Assembly: GCA_037893245.1 (NCBI GenBank) | Contig: JBAIAA010000694.1 | Location: 248,001-312,000 of the forward strand | Reading direction: 5' to 3' | DNA length: 64,000 nt | Source: Crossaster papposus | Lineage: Eukaryota > Echinodermata > Asteroidea > Velatida > Solasteridae | In this document: piece after piece, positions 34,801 through 64,000 of the stretch | How the letters are laid out: every line of letters starts with the position of its first letter | Position numbering within the stretch: position 1 is the first letter of the stretch | Notes under the pieces: model-generated | Databases searched by the model: none | What the model was told of the DNA's origin: nothing | Seen by the model: the letters and a program-made list of their open reading frames with translations, nothing else | Translations under genes and position numbers: made by a program

Positions 34801-34808
34801 ACTCTAAA

Positions 34809-36303: not shown

Positions 36304-36454
36304 AAGGCCGAATCCACTCTACATTTCGTATCTGTCTTATCTGTCGTATCTGAGGCCTGTTGTCTAATTTTCCTCAAATCGGCAAGTATCGGCAAAAAAT
36401 AGCCAGGTTGTAAATATATAAAACAAAATTCAAGTTTCAAGTCAACCGCCGACC

Positions 36455-36840
36455 TCGCTGCAGCAGCAGTCCAATGGGTGCACAGTTTGGCAGGCCTGCC
36501 TTCACCGACAGATAGCAGCATGGTTAAGATGGCTCTTCAAGGATTAAAAAAGGCTGAACTCTTCACCGACCATCCGAAAATATCAAATTACACCGGACAT
36601 TCTGACTAAGCTGCACATCAGCCACGGACACTCTTCCGCAACACTGGCAGATCTGCGCATCCTGTTTGTTTGTTCCATTTCATACGCCGGATTCCTACGC
36701 TTTGACGACATAAAAAACATAAAAACAGAAAGGATTGTACAATTACCTCAGACCGGCTAACCATACACCTTCACAAATCTAATCGGACCAATTTCGAAAA
36801 GGGGCAGAAGTAGTTATCGCCAGAAATTGTGGTCTTAATC
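36455..36840 (+). pseudogene. Tyrosine recombinase fragment (DIRS/Crypton type), degraded
   Basis: Shifted frames show QWVHSLAGLPSPT, then LTKLHISHGHSSATLADLRI, LFVCSISYAGFLRFDDIKNI and LTIHLHKSNRTNFEKGQK. The AGFLRFDD(I) motif with the preceding hydrophobic helix contains the first catalytic Arg of eukaryotic tyrosine recombinases such as those of DIRS and Crypton elements. The His-x-x-Arg and Tyr parts are missing and there are stops, so it is a dead fragment. It lies between the foldback-like element and the start of the long tandem array. Confidence 0.55.
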
Positions 36841-41190: not shown

Positions 41191-42830
41191 CAATTTGTTT
41201 TAATTTTTTTTTAAGAACAATAATCACAATTCCGCCAATTTTAATGGAAATACAAGGCTAACCACTGTTCCCCCTTACAATTGTTCGTTTTTCTAAAAAG
41301 AAAAAAGAAAAAAAAAAAGGCAAATAATTGTTGGCCAATGTTGATAGGAATGCAAGAATAACCCCTGGCCACTTTTAATTTCTCATAAAACCAAAGTCAA
41401 TTTATGGCGAATTGGAATTGAAATATAAGACTAACCCCGTACAATGTTTTAATTTGTTTCCAAGAACAATTCAATTTCCGCCAATTTTAATAGAAATGCA
41501 AGGATAACCCCTTTTCCCCCTTACAGTTGTTCGTTTAAAAAAAACCAGCAATTATCAATTAATTTTGGTCCTATTTTGATAAGAATACAAGGTTAACCCC
41601 TGGCAACTTTCAATTTCTCCTGAAAGTTAATTTCTGGCGAATTGAAATTTAAATATAAGACTAGCCCCAAACAATGTTTTTATTTCTCCAAAATGTCATT
41701 TTTGTGGCCAATTTTGAAACAGAATGAAAGGTTATACCCTTGCAGGTTTTGTATTTTCCCAAAAAGTCAGTTTTGGGGATAATTTTAATTTAAACGCGAG
41801 GCTAACCTCTCACAATTATTTTATTCTAGGCCAATTTTAGACGGAAAAAACCAAACCGAGGCTAACTCCTCACAACTGGTCAATTTTCGCAAACAATTAT
41901 TTGTTGGGGGAAAATTTCATTTAAATCTCGAGGCTAACTCCTTACAATTATTTATTTGCAAGTAAATAACACATGCATTGCCACCCTACTCCTGGGCACC
42001 ACGAGGCAAGGCTGTCTGTCTGATTTTCAGTTGTTTCCTATGTGCGCGTATGTTGTGCAGTGCACCCCCTCATTCAAGCCCTATTGAAACAAGTGTAAAA
42101 ACCCAGTCTCGAAATGTTATACTTCCCCAGCCTGCACGCAGGCATTTTACAAGGGGCATCCCTCCACGTTCTCGGGCAATTAGGACCCATTTTTCAACCG
42201 TAATTTTATCAAGTCTTCCCTCAGATTGAAGTCCCAAAACCAGAGGGGTTGATCCTGGGCTATTATTTATACAATCCCAGCATTGTTTTTTTACCAAATG
42301 GATTTCTTTTTCAAATAGAATTGTGGGGGGCACATTTCATGCTAATGAGCTAGCGTAGAAATTCTCACTTCAATTCGGGCAGTGCACCCCCCTATGAGCC
42401 CGCGTTTCGCCGGTGACCGCCATTTGTGTGGCGCGCCCTCTATTGACATGCAATAAGTCGGGTTTTCGGACAATAAATGCGTGGGCTCATAAACCCTGAA
42501 AATACAGTTTCCACTTGTTTCTTTGAGCATATGTAAACAGAGCTATTACTCCGGCCTCCCAACCCATTAAGGCACATCGATTTGAATCAATTTTATCTAT
42601 CTCGTGGTAGAATGACCGAGTGTTTAAGAACCTCGACTGCGGTATCCATGGTCCGGGTTCGAGTCCCGGTCCGGCCCGAGGCCTTTCGTTTTTTCCAGTT
42701 CCAACGCACGCTGTTTCGCAATCTTTTCCTTAACATAATTAATTTATCGTCCTCACTCACCAACCGAGTTTAGCTGACCGGCTTAATTCGTCAGGTTGGG
42801 ACTGTCCGCGGAGGTTCAGGATCGTGCGTG
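41191..42830. repeat. Array unit 3 (1640 bp)
   Basis: Standard short unit. Ten diverged ~75-bp monomers, each with a '(a)ggctaaccc'-like core, fall at about 41260, 41350, 41430, 41503, 41590, 41663, 41730, 41803, 41864 and 41935. The remaining ~850 bp is unique. Here the C tract is only 5 long, and the following 'tacgggcgcactagc' is deleted (42066). tRNA-like copy at 42606-42676. Confidence 0.92.
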
Positions 42831-44504
42831 CAATTTGTTTTAATTTTTTTTTTAAGAACAATAATCACAATTCCGCCAATTTTAATGGAAATACAGGGCT
42901 AACCCCTGTTCCCCCTTACAATTGTTCGTTTTTCTAAAAAAAAAAAAAAAAAAAAAAAGGCAAATAATTGTTGGCCAATGTTGATAGGAATGCAAGAATA
43001 ACCCCTGGCCACTTTTAATTTCTCCTAAAACCAAAGTCAATTTATGGCGAATTGGAATTGAAATATAAGACTAACCCCGTACAATGTTTTAATTTGTTTC
43101 CAAGAACAATTCAATTTCCGCCAATTTTAATAGAAATGCAAGGATAACCCCTTTTCCCCCTTACAGTTGTTCGTTTAAAAGAAACCAGCAATTATCAATT
43201 AATTTTGGTCCTATTTTGATAAGAATACAAGGTTAACCCCTGGCAACTTTCAATTTCTCCTGAAAGTTAATTTCTGGCGAATTGAAATTTAAATATAAGA
43301 CTAGCCCCAAACAATGTTTTTATTTCTCCAAAATGTCATTTTTGTGGCCAATTTTGAAACAGAATGAAAGGTTATACCCTTGCAGGTTTTGTATTTTCCC
43401 AAAAAGTCAGTTTTGGGGATAATTTTAATTTAAACGCGAGGCTAACCTCTCACAATTATTTTATTCTAGGCTAATTTTAGACGGAAAAAAACAAACCGAG
43501 GCTAACTCCTCACAACTGGTCAATTTTCGCAAACAATTATTTGTTGGGGGAAAATTTCATTTAAATCTCGAGGCTAACTCCTTACAATTATTTATTTGCA
43601 AGTAAATAACACATGCATTGCCACCCTACTCCTGGGCACCACGAGGCAAGGCTGTCTGTCTGATTTTCCGTTGTTTCCTATGTGCGCGTATGTTGTGCAG
43701 TGCACCCCCCCCCCCCCCCCCCCCACCTACGGGCGCACTAGCCTCATTCAAGCCCTATTGAAACAAGTGTAAAAACCCAGTCTCGAAATGTTATACTTCC
43801 CCAGCCTGCACGCAGGCATTTTACAAGGGGCATCCCTCCACGTTCTCGGGCAATTAGGACCCATTTTTCAACCGTAATTTTATCAAGTCTTCCCTCAGAT
43901 TGAAGTCCCAAAACCAGAGGGGTTGATCCTGGGCTATTATTTATACAATCCCAGCATTGTTTTTTTACCAAACGGATTTCTTTTTCAAATAGAATTGTGG
44001 GGGGCACATTTCATGCTAATGAGCTAGCGTAGAAATTCTCACTTCAATTCGGGCAGTGCACCCCCCTATGAGCCCGCGTTTCGCCGGTGACCGCCATTTG
44101 TGTGGCGCGCCCTCTATTGACATGCAATAAGTCGGGTTTTCGGACAATAAATGCGTGGGCTCATAAACCCTGAAAATACAGTTTCCACTTGTTTCTTTGA
44201 GCATATGTAAACAGAGCTATTACTCCGGCTTCCCAACCCATTAAGGCACATCGATTTGAATCAATTTTATCTATCTCGTGGTAGAATGACCGAGTGTTTA
44301 AGAACCTCGACTGCGGTATCCATGGTCCGGGTTCGAGTCCCGGTCCGGCCCGAGGCCTTTCGTTTTTTCCAGTTCCAACGCACGCTGTTTCGCAATCTTT
44401 TCCTTAACATAATTAATTTATCGTCCTCACTCACCAACCGAGTTTAGCTGACCGGCTTAATTCGTCAGGTTGGGACTGTCCGCGGAGGTTCAGGATCGTG
44501 CCTG
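42831..44504. repeat. Array unit 4 (1674 bp)
   Basis: Standard unit with an A22-type tract (42937-42958), a C tract of about 20 (43705-43724) and a tRNA-like copy at 44280-44350. Nearly identical to unit 3 outside homopolymers. Confidence 0.92.
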
Positions 44505-45644
44505 CAATTTGTTTTAATTTTTTTTTTAAGAACAATAATCACAATTCCGCCAATTTTAATGGAAATAGAAGGCTAAACCCTGTTCCCCCTTACAATTGTT
44601 CGTTTTTCTAAAAAAAAAAAAAAGGCAAATAATTGTTGGCCAATGTTGATAGGAATGCAAGAATAACCCCTGGCCACTTTTAATTTCTCCTAAAACCAAA
44701 GTCAATTTATGGCGAATTGGAATTGAAATATAAGACTAACCCCGTACAATGTTTTAATTTGTTTCCAAGAACAATTAAATTTCCGCCAATTTTAATAGAA
44801 ATGCAAGGATAACCCCTTTTCCCCCTTACAGTTGTTCGTTTAAAAAAAACCAGCAATTATCAATTAATTTTGGTCCTATTTTGATAAGAATACAAGGTTA
44901 ACCCCTGGCAACTTTCAATTTCTCCTGAAAGTTAATTTCTGGCGAATTGAAATTTAAATATAAGACTAGCCCCAAACAATGTTTTTATTTCTCCAAAATG
45001 TCATTTTTGTGGCCAATTTTGAAACAGAATGAAAGGTTATACCCTTGCAGGTTTTGTATTTTCCCAAAAGTCAGTTTTGGGGATAATTTTAATTTAAACG
45101 CGAGGCTAACCTCTCACAATTATTTTATTCTAGGCTAATTTTAGACGGAAAAAAACAAACCGAGGCTAACTCCTCACAACTGGTCAATTTTCGCAAACAA
45201 TTATTTGTTGGGGGAAAATTTCATTTAAATCTCGAGGCTAACTCCTTACAATTATTTATTTGCAAGTAAATAACACATGCATTGCCACCCTACTCCTGGG
45301 CACCACGAGGCAAGGCTGTCTGTCTGATTTTCCGTTGTTTCCTATGTGCGCGTATGTTGTGCAGTGCACCACCCCCCCCCCCCCCCCCCCCCCCCCCCCC
45401 ACCTACGGGCGCACTAGCCTCATTCAAGCCCTATTGAAACAAGTGTAAAAACCCAGTCTCGAAATGTTATACTTCCCCAGCCTGCACGCAGGCATTTTAC
45501 AAGGGGCATCCCTCCACGTTCTCGGGCAATTAGGACCCATTTTTCAACCGTACTTTTATCAAGTCTTCCCTCAGATTGAAGTCCCAAAACCAGAGGGGTT
45601 GATCCTGGGCTATTATTTATACAATCCCAGTATTGTTTTTTTAC
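44505..45644. repeat. Array unit 5, left part, interrupted by the gypsy element
   Basis: Runs as a standard unit with a ~29-C tract (45372-45400), up to 'cagtattgtttttttac'. There the retrotransposon begins. The rest of the unit resumes at 57418. Forty-seven bases present in other units at this point are missing. Confidence 0.92.
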
Positions 45645-48436: not shown

Positions 48437-51265
48437 TTACCGTCGACACATGACATTGACAAGGTTATTGGTGACCTCTAATGCCTGCTGTTGCGTCATA
48501 AGGTGTTGCTCGAGGAGCTTGGCCTCTAGCCCTTCAAATCCATAGTATTTTGGGGGCCTTCTGTTCCGCACAGGTCGAGAGACAACGTTTGGCTCATCTG
48601 TGTCGGGGCCAGTCGATGTCTTACAAGTGGGCTTCGTAGCAGGGGGGTCCGACTCTTCTGAATCTTCTCCATCATGAAGTTGATCACCCGAGGCGGATGG
48701 GTCGGGGGAAGAACTGCTTTCAGTGGAAGGAGGATCCAACTCTGCGTCCTCATCAGGAGTTTGCTCATCTGAGTTGGATGAGTTAGACGGAGAATTGGCA
48801 TCAGTGCTGCTGGCGGACGGCATGGGTTCATCTAAGCGGGAATGGTGCGAGCCCTGGGTGGAGTCACTCTCAGCAGAGATAGGGGCGTGAGATGGGAGGT
48901 CGTCGGCGGGAGGTGTCGACTCTGATGAGATTACTTCAGGATGGAAGATCTGGGCATTCGGGTTGAGATTGATCGATCGTCTAGGGGTCGGTATTGGACG
49001 AAGTGCATAGAAGTTTTCATCCGATCGGTCAGAGTCTAGTGCGTCATCCATGTCGTCAGCGTGTTCAAGTAATTGTCGTCTAATGGGACGCTTACGGCGA
49101 GGCTTAGGTTTAGGTCGCTCGGTTTTATGAGGCACATCGTCATCGGAGGGGAAGAACCCACAGGGGAGAAGCATATTTCGGTGAAGCGTTTTATCTGGGC
49201 CCTCGCCATCAATTGGGCTCACGACGTACACTGGCATGTCGGGGCTTATCCTCCGATGCACTCTGTACACGGTTTTTCTCCAACGGTCGGCAAGCTTGTG
49301 CGGCCCTTTTAGGCCGACATTTCTGATGAGCACCCTGTCACCTTCCTCCAGTGCATTTTCCCGTACCTTCTTGTCGTATCGGGACTTATTTTTCTGTGCA
49401 GTTTTCTCCATCATAGCCGATGCGAGCTCATGGGCTCGTCTCAATCGCTCTTGCAGGTCGGTTGCATACTGGTCACGATTCTTGACACCAGACTGCGAGG
49501 GTAACCCAAACAGGACGTCGATCGGCAGGCGGGCCTCACGGCCAAACATTAGGAAGTAGGGAGACATCCCAGTGGATGTATGTTTTGTACAGTTGTACGC
49601 ATGAACAAGAGGACCAACGTGTATCTTACACTTCTTCTTCTGATCTTCATCAAGAGTGCCGAGCATATTTAGGAGTGTCTGGTTGAATCTCTCACATTGG
49701 CCATTTCCTTGGGGATGGTACGGGGTAGTACGGCTTTTCCTTACGCCAGCTATTTCACACAATTCCTTTATGAGTTGAGCTTCAAAATCTCTACCTTGAT
49801 CAGAATGTAGCCGTTCAGGGAAACCATAATGAATGAAGTAAGATTCCCATAGCACCCTGGCAACAGTACGAGACTTTTGATCTTTGGTTGGGAAAGCTTG
49901 GGCGTACCGTGTATAGTGGTCGGTGATGACTAGGATATTTGTCGTGTTACTATCATCAGGCTCCAAACAAAGGAAGTCGATACATACTAACTCCATTGGC
50001 GTCGTGGTTCTTATGGGGACTAAGGGCGCGGACTTCTGGGGTCGTCGCTTGCGTCTCACACATCTTTGACACGTCTGACACTTCTTTTCTACATCTATCG
50101 CCATCTTAGGCCAATAGAAACGGGAGCGAATTAGGTCTAATGTTCTATCATACCCAAGGTGGCCGACATCATCGTGCAATCCTTGTAGGGCTTGGTTGCG
50201 ATGACTCTTAGGGAGAACTAGTTGCAGGGTGTCGCGCTTATCATTTGTGATGGTCTTCCGATGGAGAATATCATCTTCAAGGGACAGTTTATCCCACTGA
50301 CGAAGGAGTATTTGGGCCTCTTCCGACAGTGCTGACCGCTGCTCAGTAGTGGGGCGTTGTCCTTTCTTTACATATGGGATTATTTCACCAATGGTACCAT
50401 CTTCTAGTTGGAGTTGACGCCAGTCATTGGCCTCCGTGGTCGGTAGGGCTGTCTGGCCGGTCAATTGGTTTAACTCGCAGGGCACGATATACTCTGGGTT
50501 GGTGATACTCTCTACTAGGGCATGGCCGTCATCATTATCTTGGGGGGTTTGGACACCACGTTGTACATTATGTCGTTGACAAACAGCCTGAAAAACTTCC
50601 TTCGAACACACGGCATTCTGACCACTTTCACCAAGTCGTTCACGGAGTCGACGTAGCTTTTCGTCGTTTGACAGTGACTCGTCATCTGCCTGTGGTGTTG
50701 GCTGAGGTCTTCTGGACAGACCATCGGCATCGGCATTACTTTTTCCTGGGCGGTACTTAATAACGAAATTGTAGTTCGCCAATGCAGCCAACCAGCGGTG
50801 TCCAGTGGCATCCAGTTTTGCCGTAGTCAACACGTACGTCAGTGGGTTATTATCTGTTAGGACAGTGAACTCTGCTCCGTATAAGTAGTCGTGGAATTTA
50901 TCTGAAACGGCCCACTTCAAAGACAGGAATTCCCACTTGTAGGCGGGGTAGTTTAGCTCGGACTTTGAAAGACCGCGGCTAGCGTACGCAATGACACGCG
51001 GTCGGCCATCGTCATCTTCTTGGTAGAGTGCTGCGCCAAGCCCAATCCCACTTGCATCGGTGTGAATGGTGAATGGCTGGCCGTAATCTACAAATCCAAG
51101 TACGGGAGCAGAAGTTAGCTTTTGTTTGATGGTCTCAAACGAAGTCTGGCACGCTGAACTCCAGAGGTGACCAAAAGGCTCGGTTGGGCTGCGAAGTTTT
51201 GGTTGAGGTTTCTTCTTCTGGTTCTTGCCAAACCGCCGTTTCGTTAAATCGCAACCAGCAGTCAA
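48437..51265 (-). CDS. Gypsy pol, 3' part: RNase H and integrase
   Basis: The frame is open for 942 residues. RNase H motifs are HTDASGIGLGA (Asp70), KWEFLSLKWAV (Glu112) and LTDNNPLTY (Asp138), followed by a typical NYNFVIKYRPGKSNADADGLSRR end. Integrase has an HHCC zinc finger (His364, His369, Cys396, Cys399) and a DD(35)E core (Asp430 in CIDF, Asp489 in HSDQG, Glu525 in GQCERFN). A GPY/F-like segment follows (VGLKGPHKLADRW, ~650). A 250-residue acidic Ser/Pro/Asp-rich tail ends RPVRNRRPPKYYG...CRR. All catalytic residues are intact. The Met is not a true start; this is the continuation of the upstream pol frame after a one-base frameshift near 51333. Confidence 0.92.
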   Translation of the reverse strand: MTAGCDLTKRRFGKNQKKKPQPKLRSPTEPFGHLWSSACQTSFETIKQKLTSAPVLGFVDYGQPFTIHTDASGIGLGAALYQEDDDGRPRVIAYASRGLSKSELNYPAYKWEFLSLKWAVSDKFHDYLYGAEFTVLTDNNPLTYVLTTAKLDATGHRWLAALANYNFVIKYRPGKSNADADGLSRRPQPTPQADDESLSNDEKLRRLRERLGESGQNAVCSKEVFQAVCQRHNVQRGVQTPQDNDDGHALVESITNPEYIVPCELNQLTGQTALPTTEANDWRQLQLEDGTIGEIIPYVKKGQRPTTEQRSALSEEAQILLRQWDKLSLEDDILHRKTITNDKRDTLQLVLPKSHRNQALQGLHDDVGHLGYDRTLDLIRSRFYWPKMAIDVEKKCQTCQRCVRRKRRPQKSAPLVPIRTTTPMELVCIDFLCLEPDDSNTTNILVITDHYTRYAQAFPTKDQKSRTVARVLWESYFIHYGFPERLHSDQGRDFEAQLIKELCEIAGVRKSRTTPYHPQGNGQCERFNQTLLNMLGTLDEDQKKKCKIHVGPLVHAYNCTKHTSTGMSPYFLMFGREARLPIDVLFGLPSQSGVKNRDQYATDLQERLRRAHELASAMMEKTAQKNKSRYDKKVRENALEEGDRVLIRNVGLKGPHKLADRWRKTVYRVHRRISPDMPVYVVSPIDGEGPDKTLHRNMLLPCGFFPSDDDVPHKTERPKPKPRRKRPIRRQLLEHADDMDDALDSDRSDENFYALRPIPTPRRSINLNPNAQIFHPEVISSESTPPADDLPSHAPISAESDSTQGSHHSRLDEPMPSASSTDANSPSNSSNSDEQTPDEDAELDPPSTESSSSPDPSASGDQLHDGEDSEESDPPATKPTCKTSTGPDTDEPNVVSRPVRNRRPPKYYGFEGLEAKLLEQHLMTQQQALEVTNNLVNVMCRR

Positions 51266-51282: not shown

Positions 51283-53226
51283 CTATTGAAGAATAACCTT
51301 CGACAAAACGACGATAGTAGCCGGTAAACCCAAGAATGACTTCAATTCTCTGGCTGTGTTAGGAACGGGCCACGACTCCACTGCGTCAATCTTGCTGGGG
51401 TCGGTACTCACACCTTCAGCCGAAATGACATGACCAAGGCACTTCACAGATGACTGAAAAAACTTGCACTTAGTAGGACTAAGTTTGAGCCCAAATTGAC
51501 GAAGACGGTCGAGAACTTGAACCAGCTTAGCCTCGTGCTCTACGGCGGTCCTTGCAAACACAATAATGTCGTCCAGGTAAACAAAAACACCGTTATGATG
51601 AAGATCACCCAAACATCTCTCCATGAGTCGTTGGAAAGTTGCAGGGGCGTTTGTTATTCCCTGGGGCATACGATTAAACTCATAGAATCCCAGAGGGCAC
51701 CAGAAAGCGGTTTTGTGTTTGTCGTCCTCTGCCATCTCTATCTGATAGTACCCCGACTTTAGATCTAAACAGGAGAACCACTTTGCGCCATTCATTGCAT
51801 GCAAAGTATCTTCAATTTTCGGTATGGAGTATTGGTCTCGTATGGTGCGGCCATTCAGTTTCCGATATTCAATACAGAGCCGAATGTCCCCATTCTTTTT
51901 CCGGACTAACACGATTGGCGATGCGAATTGGCTTGAGGACTCGCGGATGATCTCTTTCTCCTGCAGTTCCCTGATGTGTTTACGGGCATCAGCATAATCT
52001 GCAGGGGGGATACGGCGACAACCCTCACGATATGGCGTTTCGTCAGACAGGTTGATGGTGTGTTTAACGGCAGCTGTGCACCCAATGTCTAGGTCATGTT
52101 TGGAGAATACATCAGAACGGTTACGGAACAACTCGGTAACGCGCCTTATATCGTCTGCGGGAAGGGGAGAACCTTCAAAGTCAAACTTGACGTCTTCATC
52201 ACTGGAGGGAGACGGAGACATATATGGTTCGTGTGCACCAAACGGCAGCTCTTCTACAATACTAAACGCTGAGGCGAGGCGGCATCGGGCGGGGACCACT
52301 ACACTCTGGCAGGACTTATTGGTAAGGATGACTCTTGTCTTTGCCATTCTGTGGGCGGGTAACTCAACCATGCAGGTTTTAAGTTCAACGCCATCTGGGA
52401 GCTGGGATGTGTTTTCCTTCTCGACTAGAACATCAAGTCTGGACCGAGAACGATTGTTAATTCGCGTTGTTATTTCAACCTGTTCACCTGGCTTAAGTGC
52501 TGTGGGTTTTAGAGTTTTAACTGGCCCAAGTCTTCCGACAGATGTCAAACGGGGGGAAAGCTGGTAGACTTGTGCCCACGCACTATCAACTGGAAGGTTT
52601 CGGAGGAAATTCTTGCCACCTTTCTGCTGACAAACCCGCATCATTTCTCGCACTACGCTAGTGTTAGTACCGACAAGCAGGGGTACATCGTCGGCCCCTT
52701 GACGATTCGGACATACAAGGGCGAGGGTCGTGACTTCTCTCTGCATCCCAGCGGAACTAGCTGGAAACTTTAGGTTTAGCTCGATATACCCCTTATATGG
52801 GACAGGCTGACCAGCGGCGCCTATCACCGCGAGGTGTGATAGGGGTTGTAGCTGGCGATGTGGAAGATGGCGGGCGTGGTACGTAGCGGTTATGCACGTG
52901 ACTTGCGAACCGGTGTCAAGGAGGCATTTGGCTGGCTGTCCATCGATGAATACATGGGTAACGGCCTGACCACCAACAACACCTGGAGGGACATCTGAAG
53001 GAGAATCTCCCTGACACCGCATCGACGCAGTCGGATGACGCACTGGACCCTTAGATGAGTTCGGGACGGCTGTTCGGGCACCTACAGCTGTCCGCTGCCG
53101 TTTCCCGAAATCTGGTCGCCCTTGGCTTTGGGTAAACGAGACATCATTTTTTCTTGCACAAGGGCAGGGTTCTTGAGCCTGGTGCAGGAGTCCATGCGGT
53201 GGCCGTCCTCGCCGCAGTTGTAGCAA
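51283..53226 (-). CDS. Gypsy pol, 5' part: protease and reverse transcriptase
   Basis: The 647-residue frame has an aspartic protease motif LLDTGSQVTCI (Asp104) in a retropepsin-like context. The RT has FASPIVLVRKKNG, FSCLDLKSGYYQ (Asp488), FNRMPQGITNAPATFQ and VYLDDIIVF (Asp552-Asp553), then KCLGHVIS. The frame derails at KSFLGL. The minus-strand sequence shows one missing base relative to the frame that continues into RNase H, so Pol is truncated after the RT thumb. It overlaps the end of gag by 145 nt in the -1 frame, so expression would need -1 frameshifting. A run of six A (minus strand, 53147-53152) lies in the overlap, but no perfect slippery heptamer was recognised. Confidence 0.92.
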   Translation of the reverse strand: MLQLRRGRPPHGLLHQAQEPCPCARKNDVSFTQSQGRPDFGKRQRTAVGARTAVPNSSKGPVRHPTASMRCQGDSPSDVPPGVVGGQAVTHVFIDGQPAKCLLDTGSQVTCITATYHARHLPHRQLQPLSHLAVIGAAGQPVPYKGYIELNLKFPASSAGMQREVTTLALVCPNRQGADDVPLLVGTNTSVVREMMRVCQQKGGKNFLRNLPVDSAWAQVYQLSPRLTSVGRLGPVKTLKPTALKPGEQVEITTRINNRSRSRLDVLVEKENTSQLPDGVELKTCMVELPAHRMAKTRVILTNKSCQSVVVPARCRLASAFSIVEELPFGAHEPYMSPSPSSDEDVKFDFEGSPLPADDIRRVTELFRNRSDVFSKHDLDIGCTAAVKHTINLSDETPYREGCRRIPPADYADARKHIRELQEKEIIRESSSQFASPIVLVRKKNGDIRLCIEYRKLNGRTIRDQYSIPKIEDTLHAMNGAKWFSCLDLKSGYYQIEMAEDDKHKTAFWCPLGFYEFNRMPQGITNAPATFQRLMERCLGDLHHNGVFVYLDDIIVFARTAVEHEAKLVQVLDRLRQFGLKLSPTKCKFFQSSVKCLGHVISAEGVSTDPSKIDAVESWPVPNTARELKSFLGLPATIVVLSKVILQ

Positions 53227-54230
53227 AAAATAGACCTAAAGCTCCGACCAGGGGATGTGGTTGAAGGAGATGGTCTACGGGGAGTGCTGGGTTGATTGAA
53301 GAACCCGTCAAGTCGGCGGTGCAGGCGGTCGACGGCTTGCCGCAGCTCGGCTACCTCTCCGCCGTCACTTGGTGTTGGGCTGGGGGCCGCCTTTATAGTC
53401 TGGTTTTCCGCCGACGCAGTTTGGGCCATGGTAGCTACCCTCTTTGCTGACTTGGGTTCACCCTTTCTTCGATCAGACTTCTCTTCTAACAAGGCCTCTG
53501 CTGCCCGCACTTCCCGAAGTAGAAATAACATGTCAGGGGGATTTTCCTTCTTGGCCCTGAGTTGCAGCATGTTTAGAAGGGGGTCGTTGTACAGGCAGCC
53601 TCTTTGAAACTGACTACACAGGGTCTTGTCAGAGTCGTCGGGGTCGATACCGTCCATCTCAACAACTTGAGTCAGGAGTGTGTGGAGTCGAAGAAGATAA
53701 TCCGAAGCCTTCTCTTCCACCTTCTGATATGTACACCTGAAGTTGGTCAGGAGCTCATCGCCATCTGCAGTGGGCCCATATGCGCGAGACAGACAAGTCA
53801 GATATTCGTGTGCCGCACTCCCATCTGCTACGGCCCAAACGACGTTTAGAGCGGGTGGGACTAGGGATTCCGTTATTCGGCTCTTCTTCTCGCTGTCCGG
53901 AATGCTGTCATCCTTCACGAGCTGGCGAGCCAAACGTCGCCAATTTTCGAAGTCTAACTCACCAGATGGAACTGGAGACTTTCCCGAAAACAGTCTCAAA
54001 CGGCGATATGATCTACTGGAAACCTTGTCAATGACATGCACAACACTCGGCTTGTTGCCATCACTTTCCTCAACATTATCATCTATCTTTGGTTCTTCTA
54101 GGCCTAACCCAAGGGACTTGAGGTCGTCCATGGTCTTCCCGTGACCGGACAGAAACTCTTCAAGAGCTTCGGAAAACGCCGCGGCCATCGTGATTTTGTT
54201 GATACAGGTGTTATATTTACAACAATGCAC
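53082..54230 (-). CDS. Gypsy gag with PNMA-like capsid and CCHC zinc knuckle
   Basis: 382 residues if read from 54230. The second Met (residue 15, at 54188, MAAAFSEALEEF) is a likelier start. The capsid region (~residues 76-245) begins RLRLFSGKSPVPSGELDFEN, continues SEKKSRITESLVPPALNVV and has FRCTYQKVEEKASDYLLRLH. The order FSG-x-x-P-x-P-x-GE-x-x-F-x-x-W, then E-K-x-R-x-x-ESL-x-x-PAL, then TYQK-x-x-EK-x-S-x-Y-x-x-RL is characteristic of PNMA-family Gag-like proteins. One CCHC knuckle follows (Cys336, Cys339, His344, Cys349) for RNA binding. No stops or frameshifts. Gag forms the particle that packages element RNA. Confidence 0.9.
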   Translation of the reverse strand: MHCCKYNTCINKITMAAAFSEALEEFLSGHGKTMDDLKSLGLGLEEPKIDDNVEESDGNKPSVVHVIDKVSSRSYRRLRLFSGKSPVPSGELDFENWRRLARQLVKDDSIPDSEKKSRITESLVPPALNVVWAVADGSAAHEYLTCLSRAYGPTADGDELLTNFRCTYQKVEEKASDYLLRLHTLLTQVVEMDGIDPDDSDKTLCSQFQRGCLYNDPLLNMLQLRAKKENPPDMLFLLREVRAAEALLEEKSDRRKGEPKSAKRVATMAQTASAENQTIKAAPSPTPSDGGEVAELRQAVDRLHRRLDGFFNQPSTPRRPSPSTTSPGRSFRSIFCYNCGEDGHRMDSCTRLKNPALVQEKMMSRLPKAKGDQISGNGSGQL

Positions 54231-54594
54231 AACTTATAAGTATAACAATTAGGGCAAAGAAATAGTAATGGAAAGTGAGAAATGCAGCAAGTGAGGATAA
54301 AATATACAAAATACAAGTTCAACCCGCAAATTACGATCAATAATCCGCAATATGAAAAGGGGAGGAAAAATTGTCAACATATACAAATCAACAATGAATA
54401 TGAACCAACAATATTAGAAGATAAAAACCAACTCAAAAAATTAGCTTTTGTATAAGATTAGTGATGTTTCCCTCCAAAGAAAAAACGATCCACAAGAAAA
54501 AGCAAACTGTTTTTTGTTTGTTTGTGTGTAAACAACAACCAGGAAGGTGAAAGTGTGGAAGGGAAACAAATTTTAAAATTGAGCAAATCCGGGT

Positions 54595-54604
54595 GGTGCC
54601 TCCA
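54595..54604 (-). promoter_or_regulatory. Primer-binding site, tRNA-Thr-like
   Basis: In element orientation the LTR ends TGACA, then AAA, then TGGAGGCACC. TGG is the complement of a tRNA 3' CCA, and TGGAGGCACC fits the 3' end of some animal tRNA-Thr (…GGTGCCTCCA). The three-base spacer is normal. The tRNA identity is from memory and tentative. Confidence 0.6.
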
Positions 54605-55378
54605 TTTTGTCACAGGCTGTCTCAAGCTTAGTCTGAGGACCTATGTCGGTTCGTTTAAAAAGTCTGGATATTGCTCATAAGAAAAATCACACAGATAGCA
54701 AAGTTTAAGTTGGTTATTTCCCCTTGGAAAACTATTATATTATTATTGGATCAATCATATCATATATCGTCACGGTCAACAGTGGTTGGTCAGAAAAGAA
54801 TAAAATATAAGATATCACAATCATCAAAATATACGTGTGACGTTCAGTGGTGTAACGGTTAGAGGTAACAATACAATCAAAACAAGGTAGGACCAATCAG
54901 CAAAACAACTACAACAAAAGTTGTAATTTGGGCAAGAAAAAATATAAAAGAAAGGTGAAAGGCGAGTACCAAAATCTCAGAGCATTGGACTCCACGAAAC
55001 AAATCCTCAAGTGTCCAAGGTCAACAAACCTTAAATTTTGTGTAAGCCAAAAGTATGAATAGATACAAACAAACGCAATGAGGTTAAACCACTGAAGCAT
55101 CAACACGCATAATAGCAATACAATAAAAGGTAGGACAACAGTAAATTATTATACAATGGTAATATGAAATCTTAGCTGGGTTTCAGCGCGTCGGGGCTTG
55201 TCTTGGATGGCAGATGCAACGGGTCGTACTCGGATGGGGTCCGCGTAGTGTAACGTCGGTCCTGACAAGTCCAGCGAGCGGTGATCCAGACGGGAAAAGG
55301 GGGGTTGTGAGAAGCGAAGGGCCGAGCGAAGAATCGAACCGGGTCGACTCTCCAAAGCGTGACCTGGGGACTCGTGTT

Positions 55379-55562
55379 CTGTATCAACAGAGCACGTGGC
55401 AAATGATGCGAAAATGTCGTTAGGAACGTAACTTTTGACTAAACTAGTAAAAGTTGACTTAGGGAAGTCCGCACTCGTTCCTACGCATAACTATATCATG
55501 AAACTGGAAAGTGAGAGCACTTTAGTTCAGGTCCACTCGCATCAAAGGTCTTTTTCGCTTCT
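55379..55562 (-). repeat. 184-bp exon-like direct repeat, downstream copy (type B)
   Basis: Matches 56782-56965 with two mismatches. In element orientation it starts AGAAGCG after a possible acceptor (aaccttAG) and ends GTTGATACAG, continuing without a donor. Confidence 0.75.
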
Positions 55563-56781
55563 AAGGTTAGATCCAACTTTGTATTAAATTTAATAACTAA
55601 CAACAAACTTTAAAACTAGGACTACCAACAATAAAGCAAATCAAAATAGTCCAACAACTAAGAAACCTGAAAAGGTTGGGGTGTTCACCCAGAACATTAT
55701 TCTTCGACAAAAGGAAGTCGTAATAAACAAACAAAATATGAGCAAGGAAATAAATAGTCCGTGCATGTTGGTACATGAAGGTCGGTCATCTGGGGGCAAA
55801 GGGCAGGGGTGTTTACATGCTCAACAGCAATTACGGTCGTAAATGCGCTAACTTAATTGAATGGAATGTGTAAAAAACCTGACCAGCGGTAATATCTCTA
55901 ACTAGCAACACATAATGCGAAGGGACTCGAAAGACAATAAGTCCTACTACAATTAAATGGATTATTTGCACACATGTATTTTGTACAGTGTATGAACACG
56001 GCAAAACAAAAATATAACGCAACTAAATTATAAGAGAGCCTATCGCAACTTAAATTGACTGCTCCTGATTTCGTCTAAATTCATTCAACGATATAGTCAA
56101 AAACAATGTGCGTGTGGGCAGTGGCCTTACACAAGGTCACTTAGGGACAGGATTACATCGGACACTCAATCCCGTGCCCATGGTAACAAACTATAGTAAC
56201 ACATGGTTAAGACCAGACCAGAATCAAGTGGGATACAATGATCCAGCAATTAGGGATAGGACTGCATAAAAATACTTTATCAAGGGTTTGCCTAAAATCA
56301 TGAATGCTCCAACATAGGATAACAGGGAAATATGATAAGTGAATATAAGATCGGTAACTCTGCTAAATTAGGGAGTCGTCAGATAAGTTATATACAACTG
56401 GGTAACCGAGGCGGTTATTCGGACATTGGGGGTATACGGTGCTGGTAATGTAAAAGTTAGTCCGGCAGCGCAGCGGACATACAAAACTCACTTAATTCCG
56501 ATCACTTCAATGGTAACAACAAAACACCAATATCATATAAACGGCAACGCCAACATTGGATAAGGAAATAAAAGGGATCATAGAGCAACAACTATTTACA
56601 TTATCATACAATAAAGATACAGCATAAATCAACATTTGGCAGTAAGATTATCGATGGCTGCAACTCATACTGGATCTAAGGTTGTCAAAATTATCAGTCG
56701 GTAGGGCAATGTCTTAGGCCATCATCATCAATAATACATACAAGTTGAATGGTACAGAAATAAGAAAAAACATCGGCTTAC

Positions 56782-56965
56782 CTGTATCAACAGAGCACGT
56801 GGCAAATGATGCGAAAATGTCGTTAGGAACGTAACTTTTGACTAAACTAGTAAAAGTTGACTTAGGGAAGTCCGCACTCGTTCCTACGCATAACTATATT
56901 ATGAAACTGGAAAGTGAGAGCACTTTAGTTCAGGTGCACTCGCATCAAAGGTCTTTTTCGCTTCT
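56782..56965 (-). repeat. 184-bp exon-like direct repeat, upstream copy (type B)
   Basis: In element orientation it is preceded by acceptor-like attcgtcAG and followed at its exact end by GTAAGCCG, a splice-donor consensus, just as in the type A terminal region despite unrelated repeat sequence. Confidence 0.75.
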
Positions 56966-57417
56966 GACGAATTGAGGTGGGACAGGGGATAAAAACCCCA
57001 CTGTGCACGCGCTCGGACAAGTTTGGTGGGACTTTCTAATTGGCCTAAACTAGGCAATAAGGTCATTTTCACGGGAAGACCAATCCGAAGAGGAGTCTAA
57101 CATTAATGGGGACGTGGACAGCTAGGGATTGACCAATGTGGTGCCATCCGTGTGCCACGTCGAACAGCGTGATCGGGTTTTCCATACTTGAGACAAAGAA
57201 AAACTGCAAATCTTGCAATTATGGGCAGATGCCACAACAGTGTGACCAAGGTCTCCCAGACTCGAAACAAAGAAAACTGCAAGTCTTGCATTTTGTGGCT
57301 GATGCAACATGCATTTGTCCTTGTGGGTACAAATAAAACTTTAGCCGTACCGTGAACAATTAGAGATATCTGGTCGGAACAAATTTAAAATGGTTACAAA
57401 TGTAACAGGGTCCGACA

Positions 57418-57906
57418 CTAATGAGCTAGCGTAGAAATTCTCACTTCAATTCGGGCAGTGCACCCCCCTATGAGCCCGCGTTTCGCCGGTGACCGCCATT
57501 TGTCTGGCGCGCCCTCTATTGACATGCAATAAGTCGGTTTTTCGGACAATAAATGCGTGGGCTCATAAACCCTGAAAATACAGTTTCCACTTGTTTCTTT
57601 GAGCATATGTAAACAGAGCTATTACTCCGGCTTCCCAACCCATTAAGGCACATCGATTTGAATCAATTTTATCTATCTCGTGGTAGAATGACCGAGTGTT
57701 TAAGAACCTCGACTGCGGTATCCATGGTCCGGGTTCGAGTCCCGGTCCGGCCCGAGGCCTTTCGTTTTTTCCAGTTCCAACGCACGCTGTTTCGCAATCT
57801 TTTCCTTAACATAATTAATTTATCGTCCTCACTCACCAACCGAGTTTAGCTGACCGGCTTAATTCGTCAGGTTTGGACTGTCCGCGGAGGTTCAGGATCG
57901 AGCCTG
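57418..57906. repeat. Array unit 5, right part
   Basis: Resumes at 'ctaatgagctagcg' directly after the retrotransposon and carries the tRNA-like copy at 57682-57752. 'gtctggcgcg' replaces the usual 'gtgtggcgcg' near 57503. Confidence 0.92.
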
Positions 57907-59595
57907 CAATTTTTTTTTTTTTTTTTTTAAAGAACAATAATCACAATTCCGCCAATTTTAATGGAAATACAAGGCTAACCCCTGTTCCCCCTTACAATTG
58001 TTCGTTTTTCTAAAAAAAAAAAAAAAAAAGGCAAATAATTGTTGGCCAATGTTGATAGGAATGCAAGAATAACCCCTGGCCACTTTTAATTTCTCCTAAA
58101 ACCAAAATCAATTTATGACGAATTGGAATTGAAATATAAGACTAACCCCGTACAATGTTTTAATTTGTTTCCAAGAACTAATTAAATTTCCGCCAATTTT
58201 AATAGAAATGCAAGGATAACCCCTTTCCCCCCTTACAGTTGTTCGTTCAAAAAAAACCAGCAATTATCAATTAATTTTGGTCCTATTTTGATAAGAATAC
58301 AAGGTTAACCCCTGGCAACTTTCAATTTCTCCTGAAAGTTAATTTCTGGCGAATTGAAATTTAAATATAAGACTAACCCCATACAATGTTTTTATTTCTC
58401 CAAAATGTCATTTTTGTGGCCAATTTTGAAACAGAATGAAAGGTTATACCCTTGCAGGTTTTGTATTTTCCCAAAAAGTCAGTTTTGGGGATAATTTTAA
58501 TTTAAACGCGAGGCTAACCTCTCACAATTATTTTATTCTAGGCCAATTTTAGACGGACAAAAACAAACCGAGGCTAACTCCTCACAACTGGTCAATTTTC
58601 GCAAACAATTATTTGTTGGGGAAATTTTTTATTTAAATCTCGAGGCTAACTCCTTACAATTATTTATTTGCAAGTAAATAACACATGCATTGCCACCCTA
58701 CTCCTGGGCACCACGAGGCAAGGCTGTCTGTCTGCTTTTCCGTTGTTTCCTATGTGCGCGTATGTTGTGCAGTGCACCCCCCCCCCCCACCCCCCCCCCC
58801 CCCCCCCCCCCCACCCCCCTACGGGCGCACTAGCCTCATTCAAGCCCTATTGAAACAAGTGTAAAAACCCAGTCTCGAAATGTTATACTTCCCCAGCCTG
58901 CACGCAGGCATTTTACAAGGGGCATCCCTCCACGTTCTCGGGCAATTAGGACCCATTTTTCAACCGTAATTTTATCAAGTCTTCCCTCAGATTGAAGTCC
59001 CAAAACCAGAGGGGTTGATCCTGGGCTATTATTTATACAATCCCAGCATTGTTTTTTTACCAAACGGATTTCTTTTTCAAATAGAATTGTGGGGGCACAT
59101 TTCATGCTCATGAGCTAGCGTAGAAATTCTCACTTCAATTCGGGCAGTGCACCCCCCTATGAGCCCGCGTTTCGCCGGTGACCGCCATTTGTGTGGCGCG
59201 CCCTCTATTGACATGCAATAAGTCGGTTTTTCGGACAATAAATGCGTGGGCTCATAAACCCTGAAAATACAGTTTCCACTTGTTTCTTTGAGCATATGTA
59301 AACAGAGCTATTACTCCGGCTTCCCAACCCATTAAGGCACATCGATTTGAATCAATTTTATCTATCTCGTGGTAGAATGACCGAGTGTTTAAGAACCTCG
59401 ACTGCGGTATCCATGGTCCGGGTTCGAGTCCCGGTCCGGCCCGAGGCCTTTCGTTTTTTCCAGTTCCAACGCACGCTGTTTCGCAATCTTTTCCTTAACA
59501 TAATTAATTTATCGTCCTCACTCACCAACCGAGTTTAGCTGACCGGCTTAATTCGTCAGGTTGGGACTGTCCGCGGAGGTTCAGGATCGAGCCTG
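57907..59595. repeat. Array unit 6 (1689 bp)
   Basis: Standard unit of the right-hand subtype: a long T tract at its start (57909-57928), 'gacgaattgg' and 'gaactaattaaa' variants, and a C tract broken by A (58778-58818). tRNA-like copy at 59371-59441. Confidence 0.92.
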
Positions 59596-61296
59596 CAATT
59601 TTTTTTTTTTTTTTTTTAAAGAACAATAATCACAATTCCGCCAATTTTAATGGAAATACAAGGCTAACCCCTGTTCCCCCTTACAATTGTTCGTTTTTCT
59701 AAAAAAAAAAAAAAAAAAAAAAAAAGGCAAATAATTGTTGGCCAATGTTGATAGGAATGCAAGAATAACCCCTGGCCACTTTTAATTTCTCCTAAAACCA
59801 AAGTCAATTTATGACGAATTGGAATTGAAATATAAGACTAACCCCGTACAATGTTTTAATTTGTTTCCAAGAACTAATTAAATTTCCGCCAATTTTAATA
59901 GAAATGCAAGGATAACCCCTTTCCCCCCTTACAGTTGTTCGTTTAAAAAAAACCAGCAATTATCAATTAATTTTGGTCCTATTTTGATAAGAATACAAGG
60001 TTAACCCCTGGCAACTTTCAATTTCTCCTGAAAGTTAATTTCTGGCGAATTGAAATTTAAATATAAGACTAACCCCATACAATGTTTTTATTTCTCCAAA
60101 ATGTCATTTTTGTGGCCAATTTTGAAACAGAATGAAAGGTTATACCCTTGCAGGTTTTGTATTTTCCCAAAAAGTCAGTTTTGGGGATAATTTTAATTTA
60201 AACGCGAGGCTAACCTCTCACAATTATTTTATTCTAGGCCAATTTTAGACGGACAAAAACAAACCGAGGCTAACTCCTCACAACTGGTCAATTTTCGCAA
60301 ACAATTATTTGTTGGGGAAATTTTTTATTTAAATCTCGAGGCTAACTCCTTACAATTATTTATTTGCAAGTAAATAACACATGCATTGCCACCCTACTCC
60401 TGGGCACCACGAGGCAAGGCTGTCTGTCTGATTTTCCGTTGTTTCCTATGTGCGCGTATGTTGTGCAGTGCACCCCCCCCCCCCCCCCCCCACCCCCCCC
60501 CCCCCCCCCCCCCACCCCCCTACGGGCGCACTAGCCTCATTCAAGCCCTATTGAAACAAGTGTAAAAACCCAGTCTCGAAATGTTATACTTCCCCAGCCT
60601 GCACGCAGGCATTTTACAAGGGGCATCCCTCCACGTTCTCGGGCAATTAGGACCCATTTTTCAACCGTAATTTTATCAAGTCTTCCCTCAGATTGAAGTC
60701 CCAAAACCAGAGGGGTTGATCCTGGGCTATTATTTATACAATCCCAGCATTGTTTTTTTACCAAACGGATTTCTTTTTCAAATAGAATTGTGGGGGCACA
60801 TTTCATGCTCATGAGCTAGCGTAGAAATTCTCACTTCAATTCGGGCAGTGCACCCCCCTATGAGCCCGCGTTTCGCCGGTGACCGCCATTTGTGTGGCGC
60901 GCCCTCTATTGACATGCAATAAGTCGGTTTTTCGGACAATAAATGCGTGGGCTCATAAACCCTGAAAATACAGTTTCCACTTGTTTCTTTGAGCATATGT
61001 AAACAGAGCTATTACTCCGGCTTCCCAACCCATTAAGGCACATCGATTTGAATCAATTTTATCTATCTCGTGGTAGAATGACCGAGTGTTTAAGAACCTC
61101 GACTGCGGTATCCATGGTCCGGGTTCGAGTCCCGGTCCGGCCCGAGGCCTTTCGTTTTTTCCAGTTCCAACGCACGCTGTTTCGCAATCTTTTCCTTAAC
61201 ATAATTAATTTATCGTCCTCACTCACCAACCGAGTTTAGCTGACCGGCTTAATTCGTCAGGTTGGGACTGTCCGCGGAGGTTCAGGATCGAGCCTG
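59596..61296. repeat. Array unit 7 (1701 bp)
   Basis: Same subtype as unit 6, with an A25 tract (59701-59725) and a ~45-bp C tract with two A interruptions (60472-60520). tRNA-like copy at 61072-61142. Confidence 0.92.
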
Positions 61297-62980
61297 CAAC
61301 TTTTTTTTTTTTTTTTTTAAAGAACAATAATCACAATTCCGCCAATTTTAATGGAAATACAAGGCTAACCCCTGTTCCCCCTTACAATTGTTCGTTTTTC
61401 TAAAAAAAAAAAAAAAAAAAAAAAAAAGGCAAATAATTGTTGGCCAATGTTGATAGGAATGCAAGAATAACCCCTGGCCACTTTTAATTTCTCCTAAAAC
61501 CAAAGTCAATTTATGACGAATTGGAATTGAAATATAAGACTAACCCCGTACAATGTTTTAATTTGTTTCCAAGAACTAATTAAATTTCCGCCAATTTTAA
61601 TAGAAATGCAAGGATAACCCCTTTCCCCCCTTACAGTTGTTCGTTTAAAAAAAACCAGCAATTATCAATTAATTTTGGTCCTATTTTGATAAGAATACAA
61701 GGTTAACCCCTGGCAACTTTCAATTTCTCCTGAAAGTTAATTTCTGGCGAATTGAAATTTAAATATAAGACTAACCCCATACAATGTTTTTATTTCTCCA
61801 AAATGTCATTTTTGTGGCCAATTTTGAAACAGAATGAAAGGTTATACCCTTGCAGGTTTTGTATTTTCCCAAAAAGTCAGTTTTGGGGATAATTTTAATT
61901 TAAACGCGAGGCTAACCTCTCACAATTATTTTATTCTAGGCCAATTTTAGACGGACAAAAACAAACCGAGGCTAACTCCTCACAACTGGTCAATTTTCGC
62001 AAACAATTATTTGTTGGGGAAATTTTTTATTTAAATCTCGAGGCTAACTCCTTACAATTATTTATTTGCAAGTAAATAACACATGCATTGCCACCCTACT
62101 CCTGGGCACCACGAGGCAAGGCTGTCTGTCTGATTTTCCGTTGTTTCCTATGTGCGCGTATGTTGTGCAGTGCACCCCCCCCCCACCCCCCCCCCCCACC
62201 CCCCTACGGGCGCACTAGCCTCATTCAAGCCCTATTGAAACAAGTGTAAAAACCCAGTCTCGAAATGTTATACTTCCCCAGCCTGCACGCAGGCATTTTA
62301 CAAGGGGCATCCCTCCACGTTCTCGGGCAATTAGGACCCATTTTTCAACCGTAATTTTATCAAGTCTTCCCTCAGATTGAAGTCCCAAAACCAGAGGGGT
62401 TGATCCTGGGCTATTATTTATACAATCCCAGCATTGTTTTTTTACCAAACGGATTTCTTTTTCAAATAGAATTGTGGGGGCACATTTCATGCTCATGAGC
62501 TAGCGTAGAAATTCTCACTTCAATTCGGGCAGTGCACCCCCCTATGAGCCCGCGTTTCGCCGGTGACCGCCATTTGTGTGGCGCGCCCTCTATTGACATG
62601 CAATAAGTCGGTTTTTCGGACAATAAATGCGTGGGCTCATAAACCCTGAAAATACAGTTTCCACTTGTTTCTTTGAGCATATGTAAACAGAGCTATTACT
62701 CCGGCTTCCCAACCCATTAAGGCACATCGATTTGAATCAATTTTATCTATCTCGTGGTAGAATGACCGAGTGTTTAAGAACCTCGACTGCGGTATCCATG
62801 GTCCGGGTTCGAGTCCCGGTCCGGCCCGAGGCCTTTCGTTTTTTCCAGTTCCAACGCACGCTGTTTCGCAATCTTTTCCTTAACATAATTAATTTATCGT
62901 CCTCACTCACCAACCGAGTTTAGCTGACCGGCTTAATTCGTCAGGTTGGGACTGTCCGCGGAGGTTCAGGATCGAGCCTG
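61297..62980. repeat. Array unit 8 (1684 bp)
   Basis: Same subtype, with the shortest interrupted C tract of this group (62175-62203). tRNA-like copy at 62756-62826. Confidence 0.92.
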
Positions 62981-64000
62981 CAATTTTTTTTTTTTTTTTT
63001 TTAAAGAACAATAATCACAATTCCGCCAATTTTAATGGAAATACAAGGCTAACCCCTGTTCCCCCTTACAATTGTTCGTTTTTCTAAAAAAAAAAAAAAA
63101 AAAAAAAAAAAGGCAAATAATTGTTGGCCAATGTTGATAGGAATGCAAGAATAACCCCTGGCCACTTTTAATTTCTCCTAAAACCAAAGTCAATTTATGA
63201 CGAATTGGAATTGAAATATAAGACTAACCCCGTACAATGTTTTAATTTGTTTCCAAGAACTAATTAAATTTCCGCCAATTTTAATAGAAATGCAAGGATA
63301 ACCCCTTTCCCCCCTTACAGTTGTTCGTTTAAAAAAAACCAGCAATTATCAATTAATTTTGGTCCTATTTTGATAAGAATACAAGGTTAACCCCTGGCAA
63401 CTTTCAATTTCTCCTGAAAGTTAATTTCTGGCGAATTGAAATTTAAATATAAGACTAACCCCATACAATGTTTTTATTTCTCCAAAATGTCATTTTTGTG
63501 GCCAATTTTGAAACAGAATGAAAGGTTATACCCTTGCAGGTTTTGTATTTTCCCAAAAAGTCAGTTTTGGGGATAATTTTAATTTAAACGCGAGGCTAAC
63601 CTCTCACAATTATTTTATTCTAGGCCAATTTTAGACGGACAAAAACAAACCGAGGCTAACTCCTCACAACTGGTCAATTTTCGCAAACAATTATTTGTTG
63701 GGGAAATTTTTTATTTAAATCTCGAGGCTAACTCCTTACAATTATTTATTTGCAAGTAAATAACACATGCATTGCCACCCTACTCCTGGGCACCACGAGG
63801 CAAGGCTGTCTGTCTGATTTTCCGTTGTTTCCTATGTGCGCGTATGTTGTGCAGTGCACCCCCCCCCCCCCCCCCCACCCCCCCCCCCCCCCCCCCCCCC
63901 CCCACCCCCCTACGGGCGCACTAGCCTCATTCAAGCCCTATTGAAACAAGTGTAAAAACCCAGTCTCGAAATGTTATACTTCCCCAGCCTGCACGCAGGC
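62981..64000. repeat. Array unit 9, cut by the window end
   Basis: Monomers and the interrupted C tract (63860-63909) are present; the tRNA-like part lies beyond the window. The array therefore continues to the right. Confidence 0.92.

Follow-up and report, generated by a model that had tools for sequence, protein, structure and literature searches.

A Ty3/gypsy retrotransposon with a PNMA-type capsid Gag and a predicted frameshift signal in the sea star Crossaster papposus

The PNMA proteins are of Gag descent, and studies of their origin have relied mainly on elements from vertebrates. In the portion of PMC11011659 available to us, a study that sampled vertebrate genomes and vertebrate Repbase elements, Gypsy-30_Ami is treated as the closest proxy for the ancestor of PNMA, and a putative RNA-binding domain (RBD) is described before the capsid (CA) both in PNMA proteins and in metaviruses of reptiles, amphibians and fish; the search for this domain used 12 Repbase consensus elements (reptiles, fish, amphibians) and gave 217 RBD-like open reading frames (ORFs) in seven vertebrate genomes. 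Two domesticated genes are relevant for their translation: Ma3 (PNMA3), with about 20% -1 frameshifting at a classical heptamer followed by an H-type pseudoknot (PMC5009743, in part), and PEG10, with a G GGA AAC heptamer and a pseudoknot 5 nt downstream (PMC2800197, PMC4598141, both in part). Here we analyze a 64,000-nt stretch of the Crossaster papposus genome (contig JBAIAA010000694.1, positions 248,001 to 312,000; hereafter the window, whose own numbering is used throughout), which carries an element of this kind. The reading that we favor, with a probability of roughly 0.85 for all its parts together, is that the window holds a copy of an echinoderm Ty3/gypsy element with a PNMA-type capsid Gag and a frameshift-expressed pol, later changed by recombination between two families, A and B, and broken in its pol frame.

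A PNMA-type Gag in a Ty3/gypsy element

The coding part of the element lies on the minus strand and comprises the following features.

53082..54188, minus strand: gag, with a short N-terminus, a PNMA capsid and a CCHC knuckle; 368 aa from the ATG at 54188
53517..53990, minus strand: PNMA capsid domain (PF14893, E = 4.8e-27)
53181..53225, minus strand: CCHC zinc knuckle (nucleocapsid), residues 336-350 of the 382-aa ORF
51283..53226, minus strand: first open frame of pol, with an aspartic protease (LLDTGS) and a reverse transcriptase (YLDD)
48437..51265, minus strand: second open frame of pol, in a different frame, with RNase H, integrase (HHCC zinc domain, rve core, HRNMLLP C-terminal motif) and an acidic/proline-rich tail

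The ORF that contains gag (53082-54230, minus strand) counts 382 codons from a GTG at 54230, the ATG at 54188 being the likelier start. Its residues 81-238 match the Pfam family PNMA over the entire profile (positions 1-161) with 94.8 bits, above the gathering cut-off of 25, and a single zinc knuckle follows (zf-CCHC, E = 2.4e-4). No Gag-capsid family besides PNMA was reported for this Gag at E values up to 10, in a search whose HMMER filters discard most weak matches. When PDB sequences were searched with the same protein, human PNMA2 (6e-19), mouse PNMA2 (8e-17) and MOAP1 (2.3e-5) were retrieved. Capsid folds of Ty3/gypsy Gags are alike in broad terms, and one could therefore ask whether the likeness to PNMA is merely that of any Gag to any other. 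This is very unlikely: the match covers the whole of the PNMA profile at an E value of 4.8e-27 with no competing Gag-capsid family, and when a profile of seven Gags from the same genome (A3) was compared with PDB chains (PNMA2, 2.4e-45), its best-scoring stretches fell in the capsid for PNMA2 and MOAP1, and at the zinc-knuckle end for the Ty3, copia and HIV chains. Judged from these comparisons, the capsid match to PNMA is more than chance.

Behind gag, the domains follow the order protease, reverse transcriptase, RNase H, integrase, as in Ty3/gypsy elements. The first open frame of pol matches RVT_1 (3.3e-38), its protease being recognized by the LLDTGS motif together with a sub-threshold match to RVP (E = 0.0066); the second matches RNase H (1.8e-32), the integrase zinc-binding domain (1.5e-19) and rve (9.2e-13). 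A chromodomain at the integrase C-terminus is a feature of the sushi-ichi lineage and of chromoviruses; unlike these, the pol of the window gave no chromodomain match in Pfam at E values up to 1. The element further has the long terminal repeats (LTRs) of Ty3/gypsy, with TG..CA ends, a tRNA primer site and a purine tract, and related copies are surrounded by a short target duplication; it differs from Ty3/gypsy elements in general by the length of its LTRs, about 2.7-2.8 kb. By these sequence features it is a Ty3/gypsy (Metaviridae) LTR retrotransposon with a PNMA-type capsid Gag.

The original prediction, drawn from the letters of the window, had seen in this ORF an uninterrupted PNMA-type Gag with a CCHC knuckle, set in a full element with protease, reverse transcriptase, RNase H and integrase, in an invertebrate. 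All of this holds: the search of the ORF with the PNMA profile that it had proposed gave a significant match, with PNMA the sole Gag-capsid family reported, the frame is open, the pol domains are there (the protease as qualified above), and the mitochondrial cox1, read with the echinoderm code (AAA Asn, AGA Ser), has the residues expected at its conserved sites (judged by eye).

The element is one of many. Profile searches of the 1.02-Gb assembly (1,841 contigs) gave at least 150 places with a PNMA capsid above the cut-off, all those scored, from 907 first-look candidates. A domesticated PNMA gene is a single host gene that has lost its mobility parts. The window copy shares the capsid homology of the mammalian PNMA genes (human PNMA2, as above) but is one of the many copies of a mobile family that has pol and LTRs, and its Gag lacks an N-terminus resembling an RNA recognition motif (RRM).

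The gag-pol frameshift signal

Near the end of gag, a slippery heptamer is followed by a predicted pseudoknot.

53100..53106, minus strand: slippery heptamer G_GGA_AAC in the gag frame; pol goes on in the -1 frame
53047..53093, minus strand: predicted H-type pseudoknot, 6 nt after the heptamer

The heptamer was found in frame in 22 of 26 distinct Gag places. A first set was made up of 19 of the 21 Gags at loci L015-L034 and in the window (L026 and L027, whose Gag frame ends before the knuckle, were left out): all 19 carry the heptamer 8 to 19 codons upstream of the gag stop, with pol in the -1 frame, and the last 60 gag codons of these Gags contain only two other in-frame heptamers, both in L029. 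The second set consisted of L026, L027 and L001-L008; three of the latter (L001, L004 and L005) coincide with L021-L023. Here, L006-L008 have the heptamer in frame; L002 and L003, two copies on contig C79 whose Gag is cut short directly after the knuckle, lack a heptamer in the vicinity; and in L026 and L027, broken before the knuckle, it occurs only outside the broken frame. An H-type pseudoknot is predicted 5-6 nt downstream in all seven families tested, with stem sequences that differ between families.

The pseudoknot score was compared with those of 2,000 dinucleotide shuffles, in a search range that had been narrowed after the result of a wider one was seen: it was reached by 8 shuffles for the window, 5 for L032, 1 each for L021, L024 and L033, and 0 for L029 and L034. 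Among 692 other sites per element, one in the window and three in L032 reached the score, against none in L021, L029, L030, L033 and L034. Several points weigh against our reading. Besides the narrowing of the range, 27 of 2,000 shuffles reached the score of L030, and the wider range gave 3/60 for the window, 3/60 for L032 and 4/60 for L030 (0/60 for the other seven sequences); the energies come from a simple model of approximate stacking values, without loop terms; and the heptamer-bearing Gags are not independent events since they represent only about seven families.

Sequence and prediction together supply the parts of a -1 frameshift site, namely an in-frame X_XXY_YYZ, a short spacer and a putative stimulatory pseudoknot. 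The pol could also be made by another route, such as re-initiation or a spliced RNA, the heptamer being incidental. We consider this highly improbable, because the same in-frame heptamer is present in all seven families tested and lies inside the gag-pol overlap, even in L034 where the overlap is only 10 codons, and because the pseudoknot stands at a near-fixed distance from it. The signal is like that of PEG10 in having the identical heptamer, G GGA AAC, and a pseudoknot at near-equal spacing (PMC2800197, PMC4598141, in the parts available), although PEG10 belongs to another domesticated group and another capsid clade (PMC11011659, in part). It is like that of Ma3/PNMA3 in combining a heptamer with an H-type pseudoknot, a likeness of class that leaves aside the letters of the Ma3 heptamer.

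LTRs, related copies and the A/B mosaic

The ends of the element and its surroundings are as follows.

54608..57417, minus strand: 5' LTR, family A, 2,810 nt, TGTCGG...GTGACA, with its 5' end at 57417; about 98% identical to the LTRs of L015-L020
45645..48380, minus strand: 3' LTR, family B, 2,736 nt, TGTCGG...GTGACA
54589..54604, minus strand: primer-binding site (TGGAGGCACCACCCGG), lying 3 nt inward of the LTR and complementary to the tRNA-Thr 3' end with its CCA
48700..49000, minus strand: approximate passage from A to B similarity, from the identity of 150-nt pieces
37129..45644, no strand assigned: satellite array with a unit of about 1.69 kb, on the 3' side of the element
57418..64000, no strand assigned: the same array of about 1.69-kb units, 5' of the element and extending beyond the window

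A purine-rich tract precedes the 3' LTR. The genome has 28 occurrences of the tRNA end (with a T-arm pattern) complementary to the primer-binding site, and in all three loci that were cut out this proved to be the 3' end of tRNA-Thr(UGU). All 28 pattern matches lie on the plus strand of their contigs. Contig C7 has dense tandem tRNA-Thr arrays (L058-L060), with about one gene per 165 bp on one strand and AGU and UGU anticodons mixed; one UGU member per locus fits the primer site by pattern.

Six other copies of family A, L015-L020, were compared with the window copy and are about 98% identical to it across most of its length. In four of the six, pol is a single open frame of 1,596 codons (one of the others has a deletion, the other a frame break). 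All carry the A LTR sequence on both sides, and in five of the six the LTR stretches present in both LTR copies are 100% identical (851-1793 nt compared). Both flanks were read for six copies of families A and B; five of them show a 4-bp target-site duplication (by eye), and the sixth (C153) lies directly against another element. The count does not include C279, whose 3' end was not fetched, or C536 and C87, whose 3' ends were not found. Open pol frames, identical LTRs and duplications in these copies indicate, as far as sequence can, that family A has been active recently. Elsewhere in the genome, apparent tandem arrays were seen on contigs C657 (490009-553169; eight family B-like Gag copies, L031, at 8.7-9.0-kb steps) and C352 (1954882-1983967; three Gag copies spaced exactly 14,303 bp).

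The window copy departs from this picture, and the original description of it as largely intact has to be given up: its pol shifts frame between reverse transcriptase and RNase H, near 51.3 kb, its two LTRs have in common only their ends and a few short stretches, and no target-site duplication surrounds it. Because the pol frame is broken, this copy is very probably not autonomous. When 150-nt pieces were compared from 5' to 3', family A (L016-L020) was closest at first, A and B (the family of the 376-aa Gag, L032) were about equally close from about 49.5 to 48.9 kb, and B was closer from about 48.7 kb; the entire 3' LTR matches family B (L032), not A. The copy is bounded on both sides by the 1.69-kb satellite, but the two junctions fall at different points of the repeat unit, and between them about 47 nt are missing (gap counted by eye). 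The satellite was also considered as the usual insertion target and rejected as such: it was not seen at 17 flanks of nine other copies, bar short low-complexity matches at C1208.

The mosaic is most simply explained by ectopic recombination of two elements, one A and one B, inserted in one satellite array. Outside the window copy, the A copy L016 and the B copy L032 are about 76-80% identical where alignable through earlier pol and mostly 94-97% identical per piece (one piece at 85%) over the last kilobase of pol, a near-identity that suggests an older A/B exchange and would offer a natural place for crossing over. That same sign of an older exchange also speaks for template switching, in which co-packaged A and B RNAs would have been reverse-transcribed into a mosaic that integrated as one piece. 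We regard this as unlikely, for the two LTRs normally come out of reverse transcription with identical U3 and U5, which is not so here, and integration would have left a 4-bp duplication, of which the window copy has none. That the copy is a plain, largely intact insertion with two like LTRs, as its open Gag and complete set of pol domains might suggest, is scarcely credible: its 3' LTR is that of family B, whereas the siblings have the A LTR on both sides, the target-site duplication and about 47 nt of satellite are missing, and pol is in two frames. Weighing against ectopic recombination, part of the mosaic could be due to a join made in assembly within satellite DNA.

The favored reading, that of an A-family element changed by recombination with B, combines features read directly (the domain order, the heptamer with its predicted pseudoknot, the primer-binding site, the LTRs and the 4-bp duplications of related copies) with steps of expression, packaging, priming and integration taken from established retroelement biology. 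The genomic RNA would be translated mostly to Gag, while in a minority of cases ribosomes paused by the pseudoknot would slip by -1 on G_GGA_AAC and produce Gag-Pol. Gag would form capsids and pack the RNA through its CCHC knuckle, tRNA-Thr would prime reverse transcription, and the integrase would insert the DNA with a 4-bp duplication. Later, recombination with a sister-family B element located in that satellite array would have replaced the 3' end of the window copy together with its 3' LTR.

Other repeats and ORFs were noted in passing. Mostly broken PNMA Gags of 363 or 368 aa (e.g. L025, L057) occur in several copies per contig on C156, C186, C233, C390, C812, C905, C1188 and others, on one strand within each contig listed and about 110-270 kb apart. 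A flank piece recurs together with these Gags, and a marker that lies some 72 kb from L057 is repeated at a spacing that matches theirs (190, 450, 720 and 983 kb on C156); this marker was found in at least 40 places at 99-100% identity, all those scored from 542 candidates, with one on the other strand on C812. The whole looks like a giant tandemly amplified unit. It contains, at L062 (C156:500000-508000), minus-strand ORFs of 374 and 279 aa, and Rfam matched no known RNA in four pieces of it, nor any in the window. At L002 on contig C79, an open frame resembling (by eye) a reverse transcriptase of the long interspersed nuclear element type follows the truncated Gag on the other strand. In the window, three long adjoining ORFs of 718, 397 and 278 aa (24278-28483, minus strand) gave no Pfam match at E = 0.01 and are perhaps one broken gene or mobile element; the region 34719-36521 contains 14-bp minisatellites (34809-35240 and 36038-36303) that are open in several frames as arginine-rich repeats; and a 19-bp tandem repeat with 28 copies and 99% matches lies at 13801-14338. 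On the 16.3-kb mitochondrial contig, cox1 is open under several codes, a cox2 frame lies shortly behind it, and frames read by eye as ND2 and ND1 are on the opposite strand, which we take to be the sea-star arrangement.

Gag architectures and the relation to PNMA

The Gags of the window, of family B and of L034 have only a short N-terminus; in the window Gag, too few residues precede the capsid, and the RRM-like domain PNMA_N (PF20846) gave no match. By contrast with this short form, the Gags of five sister families (L021/L028, L029, L030, L033, L052) start with WCKK[DE]D followed by about 100 further residues. Single-protein searches with two of these long-Gag families, at E values up to 10, gave 124 and 133 places, some of them weak or fragmentary. 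L055, which has a stop inside, and L054 and L056, broken or partial, were omitted from the N-terminal alignment.

Is this N-terminal domain related to the RRM-like domain of PNMA? For three of the long-Gag families, PNMA_N ranked top of 24,736 Pfam families (E = 0.0092, 0.022 and 0.17, all under the curated cut-off), with matches colinear over most of the profile. A profile of the full Gag aligned human PNMA2 from residue 7 in a single stretch, to which the N-terminus added about 9 bits (3 of 1,000 shuffles reached the score), and the N-terminal profile scored higher against the PNMA2 N-terminus than all but 14 of 3,000 shuffles. The AlphaFold model of the domain has a mixed helix-strand fold (mean predicted local distance difference test score, 73.6), and of the 50 PDB entries that Foldseek listed for it, 20 have titles naming RRM or RNA-binding-motif proteins, with a best probability of 0.97 among these. 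That the two domains are unrelated is rather unlikely, given these results and the same position before a PNMA capsid, but not without arguments of its own: the top Foldseek entry is a DUF54 protein, not an RRM, and no PDB entry has an E value below 0.001; used alone against PDB sequences, the N-terminal profiles found no PNMA chain, the best match being 'Extracellular Adherence Protein' (E = 0.052 and 1.1); hhalign gave the N-terminal profile a probability of 1.5% against PNMA2 (P = 0.035); L033 and L021 have no PNMA_N match; and searching the whole genome with PF20846 gave no candidate, a result that does not show absence. In BFVD, the best matches were uncharacterised Hyperionvirus proteins (E = 0.0038), with none below 0.001. 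Sequence profiles and model are together suggestive of homology to the PNMA RRM-like domain, which we hold to be likely, not proven. Since sister families carry a domain with this resemblance, the genome seems to hold both the long (RBD-CA-NC, NC being the nucleocapsid) and the short (CA-NC) Gag architecture, the RBD being so named by resemblance.

An unrooted capsid tree of 13 Gags of the genome, including that of the window, and two PNMA2 rows resolved three groups: that of the window (A, B, L034), the RBD-bearing families and, joined by a long branch between these two, PNMA2. Note that long branches tend to attract one another in such a tree and that this one includes 13 of 21 Gags (L017-L020, L023 and L025-L027 were left out). 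PNMA-profile scores of the open-frame classes overlap, with about 101-130 bits for the assigned RBD families, the L021 family being highest, and about 95-105 for the short Gags. Within this genome, the RBD-bearing families are the better stand-in for the PNMA ancestor, and the family of the window is a short-Gag cousin. The original proposal that the window element represents the lineage from which PNMA genes come is only weakly supported: the lack of an RRM-like N-terminus and the position of PNMA2 on a long branch between groups speak against it. Set beside the published description of the vertebrate Gypsy-30_Ami type with its RBD-CA-NC Gag (PMC11011659, in part), the window element similarly joins a PNMA-type capsid and a nucleocapsid in a full LTR retrotransposon, and its sister families have an N-terminal domain resembling the RBD; its own family differs in having a short N-terminus without such a domain, and the host is an echinoderm. 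A scan of IMG/VR for relatives confirmed none of 30 pattern matches.

PNMA-type capsids in gypsy elements are already known, those nearest to the mammalian PNMA genes being taken as vertebrate ones. Many invertebrate genes bear the label 'paraneoplastic antigen Ma1 homolog' from gene prediction, so that such elements are probably already present in databases. In the literature searched, which lay outside subscription journals and Repbase and was available in part, we found no report of PNMA-type elements in echinoderms, and no paper pairing PF14893 with 'retrotransposon'. What was not found there is an echinoderm with many such families, some of them young, in which the frameshift signal is uniformly of the PEG10/Ma3 type and the two Gag architectures occur side by side.

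These observations bring us to a broader proposal, for which we would give a little less than even odds as a whole: a metavirus lineage whose Gag is of the RBD-CA-NC type and whose gag-pol switch consists of G_GGA_AAC and a pseudoknot would be as old as the echinoderm-vertebrate split or older, or would have crossed between the two groups; the PNMA frameshift signals would be inherited from this lineage; and the family of the window would have lost the RBD-like domain while being still, or until very recently, active. The data suggest that the frameshift cassette kept in PNMA3/5 may be an old part of the lineage. If the proposal is true, the frameshift signals of mammalian PNMA genes are inherited working parts of an old metavirus lineage. 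The young, multicopy echinoderm elements, with and without the N-terminal domain, provide a natural comparison for the role of this domain in the element.

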